DNA of 64,000 bases from Paenibacillus bouchesdurhonensis (GTDB lineage: Bacteria; Bacillota; Bacilli; Paenibacillales; Paenibacillaceae). Numbering within the stretch: the first letter of the stretch is position 1; each line of letters opens with the position of its first letter. A model generated the notes under the pieces. It was not told the origin of the DNA. It saw only the letters and a program-made list of their open reading frames with translations, and made no database searches. The position numbers and the translations under genes are program-made. Below, one piece after another: positions 16,679 to 31,542 of the stretch. The stretch spans positions 3,588,686 to 3,652,685 of the forward strand of contig NZ_LT732548.1 in the NCBI RefSeq assembly GCF_900155685.1, in the 5' to 3' direction.

Positions 16679-18937
16679 TTATTCATCTACTTCATCTTCG
16701 TTTTTGACTATGCGGAAGCCGATTGAACGATCGATTTTATAGCCGTATTTCTTCACCCAATCTCTCACAGTTCGTTCAGCAACCGCTTTGCCAGTCGATT
16801 CATACCATGCCATGACATCGTTTAAAGTAGGAGGTTCGCCAAAATTACAATTATTAACTACGTCCTCAAACTCCTCGGCCTTGCTCCGGCGCTCCTTCTT
16901 TGCTTTGTCCTTCCTCTTATTCGTCGCTTTCTGCCATGGAGGAGCTTCTCCTTCTGGCTCGATGTCCTTCAGGCTGCCGACATCATCAACTCGATGAATC
17001 GGATACTGAAACCACATATTCACCGGATCAAACTTGGCATACTCCCGAAGCGTACCCTCCACGCGCCACGCTGAGCGTCCTTTCACTGCCTTTAGGACTT
17101 GCTCTATAGTCGGCATGATGTTTTCCATGACATGCGGCATTGCCCGTTTAGCGTGGTCTTCCATTGCCTTAGCGCTAAGCTCGTCATCCTGTGAAACATG
17201 CTCCTGCAGGTAGGCCGGGTTATGCTGCTCAAACAGCCGCTTGTACATGGCGCAGATCGCCTTGTTCTCCTCTTGTTTAAGCAGCGCCTCCGTCACTTCC
17301 AATTCCACTAAGTCGATTAGCGCGTCCGGATCCCGGGCGAATACGCCGCTGCCGCTGGCTCTGTCCATGGACTTCTTACCGCCTTGCGAACCTTTTGAAT
17401 GATGGTGGCAGTAAATAACACTTGCGCCCAGCTCCGTTGCAACCTTATCGAACTGATTCGTGAAGTGTGCCATTTGATCAGCCGAGTTTTCATCGCCAGT
17501 TAAAACTTTATAAATCGGGTCAATGATTACGGCGATATAGCCTTTCTTGGCCGCCCGCCGGATCAGCTTCGGCGCCAGCTTGTCCATCGGCACGGATTTG
17601 CCGCGAAGGTTCCAAATGTCGATATTGCCGATGTTATGAGGTTGTAGCCCTAGCGCCTGATAAACATCCCTAAAGCGATGCAAACAACTGGCTCTGTCTA
17701 ACTCCAAGTTAACGTACAACACCCTGCCTTTAGTACATTGCCAGCCTAGCCATTTGTCGCCTTCGCCAATAGCTATGCACAGTTCGATTAGTGCGAATGA
17801 CTTACCGGCTTTCGATGGCCCGGCCATGAGCATTTTATGGCCCTGCCGCAACACACCGTGAATAAGAGGCGGCGCCAGATCCGGCATGTTGTTCCAGAAA
17901 TCGGTCAGGCTCTCTGGATCTGGCAGGTCATCGTTAACACCCTCAATCCATTCATGCCATTCAGCCCAGTTTGCTTTACCGATGTTGGTGTCCACGATGA
18001 ATTGCTTCTTCCCGTTCCGCTCAACGCCGGGCATGCGGGATAGCCTCGACGGGTTCCGATTCTGATTGTCGATGTTTAGCCCGTTCCTCTTACAGACGTT
18101 GTATAGGTAATCAACCCGTTTTCGATATTCGTCGTAATTGGCCGCTTCGACTCTAACAATAGCGTGGAGACTCTTGCCGCCGCTGTACACCATGACAGCG
18201 ATCGGCAGCTCCAGCTCCCGCATAATCGCGTTCTGCTTCTCAATGTCCATCGTGTCGGATTCGACCAGCGCATACCGGAATTCGGTCACGTTCTCATTCT
18301 TAACGCCCTTACCGTCAAGCGGGTTGAAGCGAATCCAGGCCCCTGCTTCTGGCTTGTAATCGCCCAGTACCGATCCAATGTCACCCTCACACTGGTTCAG
18401 CCGCTGAATCAATTCGCCGGCCGTACGATCCCAGGCTCCCTTTGTGGGCAAATACTTGCCTTCATCGTTTTTCCATGTATCTACGACATAGCCAACGTTC
18501 TCAGAAGCTTCGAATAAACTTTCAAGATACGTGGTGAGCTGCTGCACCGGGTTCCAGTCGGCGGGCTCGTGGATTTCCTTGCCTTCGATCCAATTCCTAT
18601 CGACTACCACATAATCGCCGCCGGAAATCTCGTCATCCCAGCTGAGCTCCCTGTCCTCCCGATCTGCAGACGACCGCGGCACCCATCCGTTATCCTTTGC
18701 CATTTGGGTAATCGTAGCCCCGGTAACCGGATTGGCCGTTCCCTCGAAGCTCGTCCACTTTTTGAAGCATTCCCCGGGATGATAGCGACCGCCGTCTCGC
18801 TTACTCCAGTCGTCCCAATCGCTGGCCGTGTAGCCCTCATACTTGAGGGCCATGCCGACCGAAATCCAGGTCGTGTAATCAAGTGATGTAGGGTCTATAT
18901 ATTGAAGCAAAGATATAAGATCGACTTTGTGTTCCAT
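16679..18937 (-). CDS. Phage primase/helicase (PriCT_2 and RepA-like ATPase)
   Basis: The 752-residue protein has an N-terminal PriCT_2-type segment (about 18-66: YTTWISVGMALKYEG, then GECFKKWTSF), a primase-like middle (YSGGKSLHAIVRVEA, about 252-266, as in small AEP-type polymerases) and a RepA/DnaB-like ATPase with Walker A AGPSKAGKS (about 375-383) and Walker B AVIIDPIYK (about 474-482). A Lys-rich linker and a winged-helix-like end (AVAERTVRDWVKKYGYK) follow. It should start and unwind phage DNA at the origin, possibly the repeats just beyond its stop. Its first codons exist in a second, diverged copy upstream of the HNH gene. Confidence 0.8.
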   Translation of the reverse strand: MEHKVDLISLLQYIDPTSLDYTTWISVGMALKYEGYTASDWDDWSKRDGGRYHPGECFKKWTSFEGTANPVTGATITQMAKDNGWVPRSSADREDRELSWDDEISGGDYVVVDRNWIEGKEIHEPADWNPVQQLTTYLESLFEASENVGYVVDTWKNDEGKYLPTKGAWDRTAGELIQRLNQCEGDIGSVLGDYKPEAGAWIRFNPLDGKGVKNENVTEFRYALVESDTMDIEKQNAIMRELELPIAVMVYSGGKSLHAIVRVEAANYDEYRKRVDYLYNVCKRNGLNIDNQNRNPSRLSRMPGVERNGKKQFIVDTNIGKANWAEWHEWIEGVNDDLPDPESLTDFWNNMPDLAPPLIHGVLRQGHKMLMAGPSKAGKSFALIELCIAIGEGDKWLGWQCTKGRVLYVNLELDRASCLHRFRDVYQALGLQPHNIGNIDIWNLRGKSVPMDKLAPKLIRRAAKKGYIAVIIDPIYKVLTGDENSADQMAHFTNQFDKVATELGASVIYCHHHSKGSQGGKKSMDRASGSGVFARDPDALIDLVELEVTEALLKQEENKAICAMYKRLFEQHNPAYLQEHVSQDDELSAKAMEDHAKRAMPHVMENIMPTIEQVLKAVKGRSAWRVEGTLREYAKFDPVNMWFQYPIHRVDDVGSLKDIEPEGEAPPWQKATNKRKDKAKKERRSKAEEFEDVVNNCNFGEPPTLNDVMAWYESTGKAVAERTVRDWVKKYGYKIDRSIGFRIVKNEDEVDE

Positions 18938-19561
18938 TCAACCCTCACACCTTTCTGGAGTATTAACGATTTTATCGACAGTCCATCCGAGTTTTAAGCG
19001 ATTGAACACCGTGTGAGGGGCCAAGCCATGTGCTTCAGCTAACTCTGTAGCCGTGTATCGCTTGCCGCGGTATCGAAGAATGCGATTATTACTCCGGTTA
19101 TTAGCCTGTGTCTTCATATCTACCCATTGGCAGTTTCCGGGGCTGTAGTTACCGTCAACATCGATGCGGTCAATCGTCAGTTCATCCGTATAACCGTTCG
19201 CTAAGGCCCAATTTCTAAATGTCATGAAGACGTGCCATTCATCACAAATAGAAATCCCTTTGCCTCCATACCATTCATATCGATCATGATCTGGATTGTA
19301 ACAGCGGTTATGCATGCCCAACCAGGTACGGTACAATCGGTCTTTTGAATGACCCATAGACCGTTGGCTAATACGATTACATCCGCAACTGGAAGTCTTC
19401 CCTGAACGCAAATGACTTCCAATTACAGTTGACCTATTTCCGCAATCACACTCGCAAATCCACATTGCATTTCCGCTTTTTGAATTTTTCTCAGCTCTTC
19501 TGATAACAGTCAACTTTCCGAATCGTTGTCCAGCTAATTGATTGAGAACATTATTTGCCAT
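18938..19561 (-). CDS. HNH homing endonuclease
   Basis: The 207-residue protein begins at ATG 19561 after GGAAGGAGG. It has a zinc-knuckle N-terminus (WICECDCGNRST...SCGC, about 34-61), an HNH nuclease centre (RCYNPDHDRYEWYGG, about 87-101, and ITIDRIDVDGNYSPGNCQW-like end near 130-148) and a C-terminal DNA-binding helix-turn-helix (TATELAEAHGLAPHTVFNRL). Such free-standing enzymes cut intron- or insert-free copies of a neighbouring gene and spread into them. It ends exactly at the primase start, and the bases before it repeat the primase 5' end. Confidence 0.85.
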   Translation of the reverse strand: MANNVLNQLAGQRFGKLTVIRRAEKNSKSGNAMWICECDCGNRSTVIGSHLRSGKTSSCGCNRISQRSMGHSKDRLYRTWLGMHNRCYNPDHDRYEWYGGKGISICDEWHVFMTFRNWALANGYTDELTIDRIDVDGNYSPGNCQWVDMKTQANNRSNNRILRYRGKRYTATELAEAHGLAPHTVFNRLKLGWTVDKIVNTPERCEG

Positions 19562-19643
19562 GATGCTGACCTCCTTCCTGGTAACTGAGGAATGAAGGAT
19601 CGATGTATTCTAGTAAAGCAATGAGGTCTAGTTTATGTTCCAT
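19551..19643 (-). pseudogene. Severed duplicate of the primase N-terminus
   Basis: From ATG 19643 a 30-codon frame begins MEHKLDLIALLEYIDPSFLSY, matching the start of the primase at 18937 (MEHKVDLISLLQYIDPTSLDY) with many third-base changes, then runs into unrelated codons and stops within the HNH gene start. It looks like the original 5' end of the primase gene, cut off when the HNH gene entered and brought its own diverged replacement. The ATG overlaps the methyltransferase stop (TAATG), so it is probably still translated as a 30-residue peptide. Confidence 0.75.
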
Positions 19644-21157
19644 TATCCCCCGCACTTCCCTTCACACTTACTCAAAAAACTGTCAATCACTTTAATCGCC
19701 GCCATAACGGGGAAAAACTGGAGTGGATCTACCGCATTCCCAAGAGCTTTCAGCCGGGCAATCCGATTTTTTATTCCATTGGCTATCCGTGGCGGCTCCC
19801 ACTCATACTGTGGTTGCCCCATAAGTGCTGGCTGCGGATAGTTCGCAACAAATTCGGAAAGAGAGTCCAGCGGATTTATTCCACGTCCGTCCAACCAGGC
19901 GGAAAGTTCATCAAGCATTCCACCCACTCTGGATTGAGTTGTCCCGAACTCCCGCTCTTCATTATTGCGCCAGGAATCGAATCTCGATCGATCTGTGACC
20001 GCGGAAGGGTTGCATTCTTGCTGTCTTGGGCTGCAGGTGTGGGCCACATTTTTACCAAAGCATGTAAATCCGGTGTCCTGCGTTCTCTCTCTGAAGGACA
20101 GTCCCCCCTGATACTCCCTTTCGGCGTCGGCCACATTCGCACCGCTCCCGGCAGTCCGTTCCTGGGGTCTTTTGCATTGATATCCCCTCGTTTCTCCGAA
20201 TCGTTCGCTCGAGGCGTCGGCCACATCTTTACCTGATCGTTTAGGTTCTGACTCCAACCTTGCCCCTTTTTCCGTTCCTGTCGAAAGGATTCCGGGTTGT
20301 CCCCGCTGCGGAAATCCCGCGCTTGAGGCGTTGCCCATAACCTCTGATCCATATTGTAAATATCCGTCCGAAGACTCTTGCTCTGCCCCCCGCCATGGTT
20401 CCCTATTGCATCTGCTGCATTTGGAGTAGCCCACATTCTCAAAACTTCCGGATCTACTTGCTCCCTTAGGTTGGCTGGCTTCGTCCTTCCCTTTCTCGTT
20501 GTCGTAGCCTGCCGGATCAACGCCTCTTCCGATCTTTGTCCCATATGATCCATCGTGTTCGGTGTAGCCCAAAATGATGATGCGGTCTCTGGGATGCGAG
20601 GCACCGACGGCCGCAGCCGGAATAGAAAAAACGATGACCTCGTAATCGATGTCTTTAAGGTCTTGACAGATACGTCCGAGAAGCATAGTTTCCTGTTGTG
20701 TAAATATCGCCTCGTAAAAGTCTTCTTCCTCCGTACGGGCAATTGTTCGGCTTTCCACTTCAATATCCCCGTCTGGCTCTGCCATACTGAGGAGCCCAGC
20801 AACATTTTCGCCAAGGAACCAACGGGGCCGGATATCTGCAACGACTCTGACAACCTCTGGCCAGAGATAACGCTCGTCATCTGCTCCTCCGCGTTTCCCG
20901 GCGTGACTGAATGGTTGGCAGGGGAATCCAGCGGAAATAATGTCAATTGCTCTATCGGTTCCAATGATTCCATCACGCTCCAATACCTCCCTCGTCAAAG
21001 TACAAACATCGTCGTATATGGGGCGGCCTGGGAAGTGTTTGGTTATTACCTTGCGCGGGAATGGCTCTCGCTCACAAAAGGCGACCGACTCCATTCCTGC
21101 CCAGGATCCGGCAAGATCAATGCCCAGGATGCCGCTGAATAAGCTAAGGTGTCTCAT
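19643..21157 (-). CDS. DNA cytosine-5 methyltransferase
   Basis: The 504-residue enzyme has motif I (SLFSGILGIDLAG, about 5-17), catalytic motif IV GFPCQPFS (about 77-84), motif VI GENVAG (about 114-119), motif VIII HPRDRIIILG (about 188-197) and motif X RLKALGNAVDP (about 472-482). It adds methyl groups to cytosine, probably to shield phage DNA from host restriction. Between motifs VIII and X (about 200-420) the target-recognition part contains five or six repeats beginning NVA-D/G-Y-A (NVGYSKC, VMGNASS, DVADASS, NVADAER, NVAHTCS). The same bases are open in another frame; see 19876-20976. Confidence 0.9.
   Translation of the reverse strand: MRHLSLFSGILGIDLAGSWAGMESVAFCEREPFPRKVITKHFPGRPIYDDVCTLTREVLERDGIIGTDRAIDIISAGFPCQPFSHAGKRGGADDERYLWPEVVRVVADIRPRWFLGENVAGLLSMAEPDGDIEVESRTIARTEEEDFYEAIFTQQETMLLGRICQDLKDIDYEVIVFSIPAAAVGASHPRDRIIILGYTEHDGSYGTKIGRGVDPAGYDNEKGKDEASQPKGASRSGSFENVGYSKCSRCNREPWRGAEQESSDGYLQYGSEVMGNASSAGFPQRGQPGILSTGTEKGARLESEPKRSGKDVADASSERFGETRGYQCKRPQERTAGSGANVADAEREYQGGLSFRERTQDTGFTCFGKNVAHTCSPRQQECNPSAVTDRSRFDSWRNNEEREFGTTQSRVGGMLDELSAWLDGRGINPLDSLSEFVANYPQPALMGQPQYEWEPPRIANGIKNRIARLKALGNAVDPLQFFPVMAAIKVIDSFLSKCEGKCGG
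19876..20976 (-). CDS. Overlapping second-frame ORF inside the methyltransferase gene
   Basis: On the same strand but a different frame, 366 codons are open within the methyltransferase gene. The product has SLAKMLLGSSVW, LFRLRPSVPRIPETASSFWATP and six repeats of W-A/P-T-P-x-x-x-D (FWATPNTMD, MWATPNAAD, LWATPQARD, MWPTPRAND and others), then LNPEWVECLMNFPPGWTD. I recognise this pattern from phage proteins annotated as methyltransferase relatives, so the frame is not random. Each repeat here uses the same bases as a NVADA-type repeat in the main frame. It may be a truly double-coded gene, or a shadow kept open by constraint on the main frame. Confidence 0.5.
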   Translation of the reverse strand: MMESLEPIEQLTLFPLDSPANHSVTPGNAEEQMTSVISGQRLSESLQISGPVGSLAKMLLGSSVWQSQTGILKWKAEQLPVRRKKTFTRRYLHNRKLCFSDVSVKTLKTSITRSSFFLFRLRPSVPRIPETASSFWATPNTMDHMGQRSEEALIRQATTTRKGRTKPANLREQVDPEVLRMWATPNAADAIGNHGGGQSKSLRTDIYNMDQRLWATPQARDFRSGDNPESFRQERKKGQGWSQNLNDQVKMWPTPRANDSEKRGDINAKDPRNGLPGAVRMWPTPKGSIRGDCPSERERRTPDLHALVKMWPTPAAQDSKNATLPRSQIDRDSIPGAIMKSGSSGQLNPEWVECLMNFPPGWTDVE

Positions 21158-30270: not shown

Positions 30271-31542
30271 ATGGCAAGAAGGAAGAAAGATGCACTGCCA
30301 CCTAATGTGCGAAGGCGCGGCAAAGGGTATACGTATCGGTATTCCATCCCGATCATTACCGAGGATGGTAAAAAAGATAGGAAACAGACGGATACGCCCT
30401 CTTACCCAACACCAGAAGAAGCGTATAAAGCTGGGATTTTAATTGAGGCACAGTTAGTACAAGGGAATTTTATTGATGAGGATAAAACAGTATTTAACCT
30501 TTGGGCTCCGCAAATGCTAGTTTATCATTCTAGAATTAAAAAACTCCATTTGAATACGATACACACTTATAAGTACAGCTTGGTTCACCCATGCACTTTT
30601 TTTAATGGGGTCAAGGTTAAAGACATTACACCTAATCAATACCAAGACTTTTTATTATGGTTGCAAGATGAACGTAAGCTTGCCACAAAATCAATCGAAA
30701 GCCTACACGGCCTGCTTAACGCATTGTTCCGGCACGCTGTACAACGCGGCCAGATCGCAACATCCCCTTCTATTGGAGCTACGATCCCAAGGGAAGAGGA
30801 TCAAGAAGATTTTGACATGGATTTTGATGAAGAGGCGGACGTACCAAATTTTCTTGAGAAGGAGCAACTTGCTAAGGTAATTTCCGCAGCTAAGCAAAAG
30901 GCCGAACAAGCGGCCACCTCATTAGAATCGTTCGACTGGCGGCAGTTTGTAAGAGCGATTTATATTATGGCGCACACAGGCATTCGTATTGGGGAGCTCT
31001 GTGTATTGGAGCCTAAAAAAATTAACTTTAAAAAATTAAAGATCAGGATTAGCGCCACGCTGTATGACAAAGAGGGGCTAAGCAATTATCAAATTGGCCC
31101 GCCCAAAACGAAAAGTTCACGTCGCTTAGTCGATATTAGCGATAGGGTCGCAGCAGTTATCGAAGCACAAATTAGAGATGTAAAGGCTTTTCGGCTAATG
31201 GTTGGCCCCAAATATCATAAAAACAAGGAAGGTAGAGAATTCATTTTTGTGAACCCTACCGAGCAGTTACCGGGATACCCAATGAGGCCGACTAGATTAA
31301 ACGAGATGTTAGATAAAGCGCTTGTAGCCGCAGAATTTCCAAGTAAATTTATTACGGCACACGGTTTGCGACACACCTATACAAGCCTCAGCGCAGAAGT
31401 CGGTGTACCACTCGATGACATCCGAAAGCAACTAGGCCACACGAAAGATGATTTAACCACGCGAGTATACCTCCACGTAACAGAAGCCCGCAGACGCGCG
31501 AACGTAGATAAGCTGGATAGTTATATAGGGGATTTGCTCTAG
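30271..31542 (+). CDS. int: Tyrosine integrase
   Basis: The 423-residue protein has an N-terminal arm-binding region (about 1-60), a SAM-like core-binding domain (about 70-170) and the catalytic domain with Arg in AHTGIRIGELC (about 234-244), HGLRHTY (about 366-372), His in LGHTKDD (about 389-395) and the nucleophile Tyr in TTRVYLHVT (about 397-405). It inserts and excises the prophage by recombination at att sites. It reads outward and is followed by the presumed right attachment region. Confidence 0.9.
   Translation: MARRKKDALPPNVRRRGKGYTYRYSIPIITEDGKKDRKQTDTPSYPTPEEAYKAGILIEAQLVQGNFIDEDKTVFNLWAPQMLVYHSRIKKLHLNTIHTYKYSLVHPCTFFNGVKVKDITPNQYQDFLLWLQDERKLATKSIESLHGLLNALFRHAVQRGQIATSPSIGATIPREEDQEDFDMDFDEEADVPNFLEKEQLAKVISAAKQKAEQAATSLESFDWRQFVRAIYIMAHTGIRIGELCVLEPKKINFKKLKIRISATLYDKEGLSNYQIGPPKTKSSRRLVDISDRVAAVIEAQIRDVKAFRLMVGPKYHKNKEGREFIFVNPTEQLPGYPMRPTRLNEMLDKALVAAEFPSKFITAHGLRHTYTSLSAEVGVPLDDIRKQLGHTKDDLTTRVYLHVTEARRRANVDKLDSYIGDLL

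Follow-up and report, generated by a model that had tools for sequence, protein, structure and literature searches.

The locus studied here raises the question of why a gene for a C5-cytosine methyltransferase carries a second long reading frame on its own strand, and what that frame encodes. It lies within a 64,000-nucleotide stretch of the Paenibacillus bouchesdurhonensis genome (the window, from whose first letter all positions are counted), in a context that corresponds to a temperate prophage, with an integrase gene (30271-31542) and genes for a small terminase, RusA and a primase. Both frames are open on the minus strand, as the initial annotation had described, and the inner one (19876..20976, hereafter beta) is entirely contained in the outer one (19643..21157, hereafter alpha). 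We propose, with a probability of about 0.83 and on the strength of sequence comparisons, that one stretch of DNA at this locus specifies both subunits of a two-subunit C5-cytosine methyltransferase of phage type.

The alpha ORF of 504 aa matches PF00145 and phrog_363 and contains motifs I-VIII and X of C5-cytosine methyltransferases, with the PF00145 match (1.4e-28) confined to residues 1-200. The motifs located include FPCQPF (20909..20926), which is motif IV with the catalytic Cys, GENVAG, SHPRDR (20582..20599) of the motif VIII region, and LKALGNAV of motif X (19730..19753), which is again read in the methyltransferase frame past the beta stop; these and all following features of the two ORFs are on the minus strand. 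The residues ~196-405 of alpha appear to form a linker that is an out-of-frame reading of the beta modules.

The beta ORF is offset by +1 against the alpha frame and has a pair of possible starts, giving 366 codons from GTG at 20976 or 365 aa from ATG at 20973, within the 504 codons of alpha. It is preceded by the Shine-Dalgarno-like sequence AGGGAGGT (20985..20992), embedded in alpha codons, the GGGAGG of which sits 9 nt 5' of the GTG and 12 nt 5' of the ATG. Beta consists of an N-terminal domain (20572..20973) that overlies alpha motifs IV-VIII, six putative recognition modules of 29-46 aa, and an LNPxWVE end that resembles motif IX (LNPEWVECLMNFPPGWTDV, 19882..19938). The modules are module 1 (WATPNTMDHMGQ..., 20434..20571), module 2 (WATPNAADAIGNHGGG..., 20338..20433), module 3 (WATPQARDFRSGD..., 20224..20337), module 4 (WPTPRANDSEKRG..., 20134..20223), module 5 (WPTPKGSIRGDCPSERE..., 20047..20133) and module 6 (WPTPAAQDSKNATLP..., 19945..20046). 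The initial annotation had listed six W-A/P-T-P-x-x-x-D repeats and an LNPEWVECLMNFPPGWTD end in this frame; the end is present and so are six W[AP]TP repeats, with the spacing to the D kept in five of the six and lost in the fifth (WPTPKGSIRGD). One DNA repeat indeed serves both frames, as in module 5, where ATGTGGCCGACGCCGA is read as N-V-A-D-A in one frame and W-P-T-P in the other. Beta matches PHROG 1008 with an E-value of 7.1e-40; direct searches of Pfam, NCBIfam and PDB gave no match, and a PDB profile search with the beta profile matched no solved structure. An AlphaFold model of beta is poor (pLDDT 61.5, pTM 0.32) and was given no weight as evidence.

Rates of change at the three methyltransferase codon positions were compared along the gene, using blastn pairs picked regardless of frame from 149 of the 150 nested loci described below, at up to 97% identity; the pairs share ancestry and are not independent, and the argument is the contrast between adjacent regions. 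Across the 149 loci, the rates at positions 1/2/3 are.184/.117/.519 before the beta start,.263/.165/.361 over motifs IV-VIII,.426/.178/.113 in the modules,.284/.107/.150 at the LNP end and.158/.079/.491 past the beta stop. Position 1 of the methyltransferase frame is position 3 of the inner frame, and the coding constraint therefore swaps frame and then swaps back. Of 3343 pairs compared in the modules, 2792 have a higher rate at position 1 than at position 3 and 148 the opposite; over motifs IV-VIII the alpha frame remains ahead, the rate at position 3 being higher than that at position 1 in 4590 of 5545 pairs. The P. bouchesdurhonensis locus itself, compared to 106 relatives, follows the pattern of the family with module rates of.471/.171/.093.

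Fourfold sites gave a consistent picture. Those of alpha change at.63 before beta,.37 over motifs IV-VIII,.05 in the modules,.09 at the LNP end and.61 after it, and those of the inner frame at.28 over motifs IV-VIII,.52 in the modules and.42 at the LNP end. In ordinary C5 methyltransferases (17 proteins from 30 loci, 8-13 pairs) the values are.61 before motif IV,.53 over motifs IV-VIII and.52 after; the ordinary enzymes also fall over motifs IV-VIII, and therefore a part of the fall in alpha, not its size, arises without an overlap. The fused Phinally-type genes introduced below have third-position rates of.357 before motif IV and.355 over motifs IV-VIII, an impure control in which a +1 ORF covers part of the stretch. 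Over motifs IV-VIII both frames thus appear constrained, with purifying selection in each as in a nested gene, and along the modules the alpha frame is just kept open, with no protein-level constraint seen on its NVADA stretch. Altogether, the comparisons lend good support to beta as a conserved nested gene.

A tblastn search with the inner protein returned 83 phage records (54 Paenibacillus, and also Acinetobacter, Gordonia, Lacticaseibacillus and others) and 7 plasmids. The pattern NPxWVExLM was found in at least 600 viral stretches, 544 of them confirmed, and LNPxWVExLM in 383 stretches of bacterial genomes, 347 of them confirmed, in records titled from Paenibacillus to Treponema, Planctomycetes, Verrucomicrobiales and Paraburkholderia; the best 80 of the 544 viral and the best 80 of the 347 bacterial stretches were taken further. 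The first set of loci comprised 197 inner-end profile matches. The initial annotation had suggested looking for the second frame without a methyltransferase, and 195 of the 197 have methyltransferase motifs upstream, the two exceptions being one at a contig edge (L107) and one weak match (L115, E 5.1).

Reduction of these 195 to non-redundant inner anchors, each with an upstream methyltransferase match, left 167, which fall into distinct layouts. The layout is nested in 150, with the inner frame in +1, motif X in frame 0 and both frames open. In five, the split ones, 7-20 stops interrupt the methyltransferase frame past motif VIII, and the inner frame stays open into motif X. One, from Pelosinus (L165), is fused, and the other 11 show frame breaks, doubtful pairings or a motif X that was not found. 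Outside this count stand six loci without a match to the methyltransferase profile and 15 without a match to the inner profile (five reversed copies and ten Phinally-type loci); nested loci had served to train both profiles. An alpha tree of 143 rows, 130 of the 150 nested loci among them, requires four changes for the split state and two for the fused state. A split second copy is present in the same genome (L023:2065-3379), in which alpha ends after motif VIII and beta continues into motif X. Two other loci have frame breaks within the array or close to it: at one (L197:2808-3722) alpha enters the module frame and motif X lies in a different frame, and at the other (L005) the two frames shift jointly; mutation or sequencing error is possible in both cases.

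The initial loci had been found through the inner protein, and therefore an extra search was performed with alpha motifs I-VIII alone. It yielded 79 further loci, 18 of them on contigs already sampled, and 76 were assessable. The beta end lies in +1, within one ORF spanning motif VIII, in 70 of the 76; alpha is open past the beta end in 66 of these (motif X being outside this check) and stops early in four. The remaining loci are two with the anchor in another frame and four without an inner-profile match, three of which have variant GFP-type ends in +1. Variant beta ends read RLSPLFTEEMMGFP... in L252 and L269 and LYAKVMGFPSSW... in L305, and those of L269 and L305 continue into TAT[QP]SSRKS tails that apparently overlie motif X.

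In the fused Pelosinus gene, motifs I-VIII, MWPTP modules, LNPDWVECLMGFPIGWTD and motif X are all parts of one ORF. The Phinally-type genes (L034 and L035 of phages Phinally and Madiba, and L201-L208 of related viral contigs) likewise keep their PTP modules, motif X and an end resembling LNxxFxEWMM in the frame of motifs I-VIII, and the inner-end profile gave no match to their ends. In fused and split homologues alike, an LNP-type end precedes motif X shortly and in the same frame. Judged from sequence, the beta modules and end are parts of C5 methyltransferases, being in frame with their motifs elsewhere. The initial annotation had assigned the target region to the NVADA repeats, and the roles must be reversed: the recognition half of the fused methyltransferases matches the second frame, not the NVADA frame. 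As a recognition region the NVADA repeats are ruled out by the codon-position rates, by the stops in all five split homologues and by the fused genes.

Profile comparison using hhalign revealed that the beta end corresponds to the end of fused and split homologues with a probability of 99.3%. Against canonical motif IX, the LNPxWVE end scores a probability of 0.9% over 10 columns, which is no statistical match, with the pattern LMGFPxGWT set against RLQSFPDxF and the position right. Motif X matches canonical enzymes with 59.5% in fused and split loci and 37% in frame 0, which is modest and refers to 17 canonical proteins. The alpha frame has no canonical motif IX and target recognition domain (TRD): from the LNP overlap onward, frame 0 aligns at motif X only. 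Among the best 60 of 91 PDB matches of the fused profile, the top ones (M.HhaI and others) end at position 175 of 268, and weaker DNMT3B matches reach position 233. The variable region and the motif-IX part appear to lie in beta, and therefore alpha and beta should form one enzyme.

We propose that alpha, translated in frame 0, would contribute the catalytic and SAM-binding motifs I-VIII, a linker and then motif X, and that beta, translated in +1 from its own ribosome-binding site, would contribute the N-terminal domain, six target-recognition modules and the motif-IX-like end. The two chains would associate, with the DNA-recognition domain supplied in trans by beta; to judge from the split loci, motif X could belong to either chain, and the NVADA stretch of alpha would be the linker, an out-of-frame shadow of the beta modules. 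At the gene level, the two polypeptides are represented by a nested ORF with its own start, Shine-Dalgarno signal and selection, homologous to the in-frame half of the fused enzymes. The alpha-beta complex, its activity and a single target for each module are what we infer from this arrangement.

Further analysis of the modules revealed 532 of them in 156 loci, with 1-7 per locus and a median length of 38 aa; their boundaries were set by a regular expression, which joined a few. They form 149 clusters, 95 with a single member and 33 with three or more. The families of the six modules at the present locus are found in 51, 16, 53, 38, 21 and 40 loci, respectively, and module families occupy varying array positions and distant hosts. 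The arrays differ in 533 of 537 locus pairs with alphas 70-98% identical, and 36 of 962 module pairs are at least 80% identical between alphas that are only 20-50% identical. As sequence modules, they are several discrete units in tandem and are reshuffled between relatives like the tandem TRDs of multispecific Bacillus-phage enzymes. By analogy, each module probably reads its own short target site, and therefore the prophage DNA would be shielded from several restriction enzymes. The modules could also make up a single repetitive platform, structural or DNA-binding in nature, that has only one specificity, which is compatible with two subunits and for which the W[AP]TP-like start common to most modules would speak, no module having a known target. 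We consider this platform unlikely, as distinct module families occur in distant hosts and are exchanged one by one, as specificity units would be, and as the available text on the C5 methyltransferases of Bacillus phages (SPR, H2 and others) describes tandem recognition domains with several targets per enzyme (PMC8936443).

Alternatively, beta might be a separate protein, such as a regulator or an anti-restriction factor, that captured the former recognition half and left alpha to work on its own. Such an origin would fit the lack of a known relative in Pfam, NCBIfam and PDB and the retention of motif X by alpha, and alpha alone might be active. However, a methyltransferase accompanies nearly every match to the inner-end profile, motif X is found now in alpha and now in beta, and the stretch of alpha between motifs VIII and X is without protein-level constraint, so that a lone alpha would have no recognition domain. 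A separate beta is therefore improbable, and we retain the reading of two subunits of one enzyme.

A programmed frameshift, in which ribosomes that have read motif VIII in frame 0 would slip into +1 and produce a single long chain rather than two proteins, would account for the change of constraint between frames at that point, and a single +1 shift would complete the enzyme in the split genes, where all alpha stops lie a few codons past motif VIII. By contrast, the nested genes would require a second, backward shift to reach motif X, and the surroundings of the five alpha stops are dissimilar by eye. Beta moreover has a start of its own: a Shine-Dalgarno match of at least 4 nt precedes 113 of 120 inner starts (120 of the 149 loci being counted), compared to a background of 0.41 at random +1 positions, and one of at least 6 nt precedes 55 of 120, compared to.04. 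A frameshift product would also omit the beta N-terminal domain, the constraint on which is reflected in the alpha fourfold rate of.37 against.63/.61 on either side and.53 in ordinary enzymes. We thus regard a frameshift as improbable and two separately initiated chains as the better account.

Finally, a passive ORF hitch-hiking over the conserved methyltransferase frame, to which overlap with conserved motifs can lend apparent conservation, has practically no chance, because selection in the modules tracks the second frame and the modules persist where the methyltransferase frame is stop-ridden. The initial annotation had held the double frame hard to explain by chance, and the shuffle tests agree. 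When synonymous methyltransferase-frame codons were shuffled in the repeat region of the 149 nested homologues, 233 second-frame stops were predicted and none was seen, and shuffling of the second-frame codons predicted 671 methyltransferase-frame stops, again with none seen, the zero counts being fixed by the definition of the class in both tests; the region-2 test of this analysis used 136 of the 149 loci. The third frame behaves as expected, with 1103 stops seen and 1129 predicted. The +1 frame of the 17 ordinary C5 methyltransferases is never open: over 110 codons counted from motif IV, it contains 5-16 stops. Hitch-hiking and a chance ORF are ruled out by the split loci, the codon-position rates, the shuffles and this control. 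Across homologues the second frame, far from lacking selection or filling with stops, behaves as a real, selected gene.

Two-polypeptide C5 enzymes such as M.EcoHK31I and M.AquI are already known. The beta gene of M.EcoHK31I is nested within its alpha gene in another frame, and the multispecific methyltransferases of Bacillus phages are single-chain proteins. According to the available part of PMC3404938, the variable region and motif IX of C5 enzymes lie in the small domain, which makes the specific contacts; M.EcoHK31I (YGGCCR) has motifs I-VIII and X in a large polypeptide and motif IX in a small one, and in M.AquI alpha has motifs I-VIII and beta the distal variable region with motifs IX-X. 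As far as that text goes, the present locus resembles M.EcoHK31I in having two polypeptides with motifs I-VIII and X in the large one, a likeness of layout alone, but differs in that the predicted TRD of M.EcoHK31I is in the large subunit, whereas the tandem modules here are in the small nested one. The five split loci resemble M.AquI, so far as described there, in placing the later part including the IX-X region in a second polypeptide, whereas the nested form leaves motif X in alpha and overlays beta on motifs IV-VIII. Unlike the Bacillus-phage enzymes, the present locus has its array in a separate subunit, read in an overlapping frame, and its modules bear a W[AP]TP signature. In phage ShiLan, the accessible text of PMC11855218 describes an HNH endonuclease hidden in another frame of a phage methylase. 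That gene and the present one have in common a second frame that functions within the methylase gene of a phage; in contrast to the homing insertion described there, the second frame here would, on our reading, belong to the methyltransferase itself.

The gene family has been annotated in several guises. The second-frame protein is annotated apart in some phages, as the initial annotation had suggested, namely as LEYRA_62 of phage Leyra, where LEYRA_61/62 are nested, and as PHROG 1008, which is the same gene family as the 'DNA-cytosine methyltransferase (x2)' of Paenibacillus larvae phages. The annotation of the P. larvae phage rows (H1-H49) is inconsistent, with two features under the match in 29 of 49 and one in the others. 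These entries annotate the gene without explaining it, no account of the overlap was found in the available text of the 48-genome P. larvae paper (PMC6070908), and a literature search, mainly of listings and openly accessible papers, found no description of a nested phage gene of this kind. In the records examined, annotation often takes one frame or files the second as 'hypothetical' or as a duplicate methyltransferase, and therefore the likely specificity part is easily missed.

More broadly, it is moderately probable that the specificity subunit of a widespread class of multispecific phage C5 enzymes is encoded wholly inside the gene of the catalytic subunit. Module swaps would then rewrite the methylation pattern, the partner keeping a flexible out-of-frame linker, and nested, split and fused forms would interconvert by single frame changes. 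The three forms provide a natural series for testing the origin and resolution of overlapping genes, and phage methylation targets could perhaps be decoded from sequence by way of the module arrays.

The fused genes retain traces of a second frame. In them, a +1 ORF covers some of the catalytic motifs and the first one or two modules, and its stop lies near the point where frame 0 takes over; a short constrained +1 ORF is retained in L034, L035 and L202-L208. In the Phinally-type genes, this +1 stretch is constrained in +1 (.173/.041/.079, 29 pairs) and the later modules in frame 0 (.129/.113/.308, 36 pairs). This pattern suggests that the fused genes derive from nested ones via a frame change inside the array, and the +1-constrained first modules of the Phinally-type genes are beyond a simple fusion story.

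Next to the locus, the primase gene (16679-18937) is adjoined at its 5' end by an HNH endonuclease gene (18938-19561, minus strand). The segment immediately upstream of the HNH gene (19562-19643, minus strand) repeats the primase N-terminus, encoding MEHKLDLIALLEYIDPSFLSYQ next to MEHKVDLISLLQYIDPTSLDY of the primase itself. This arrangement suggests that a homing endonuclease was inserted and the start of the primase gene duplicated.
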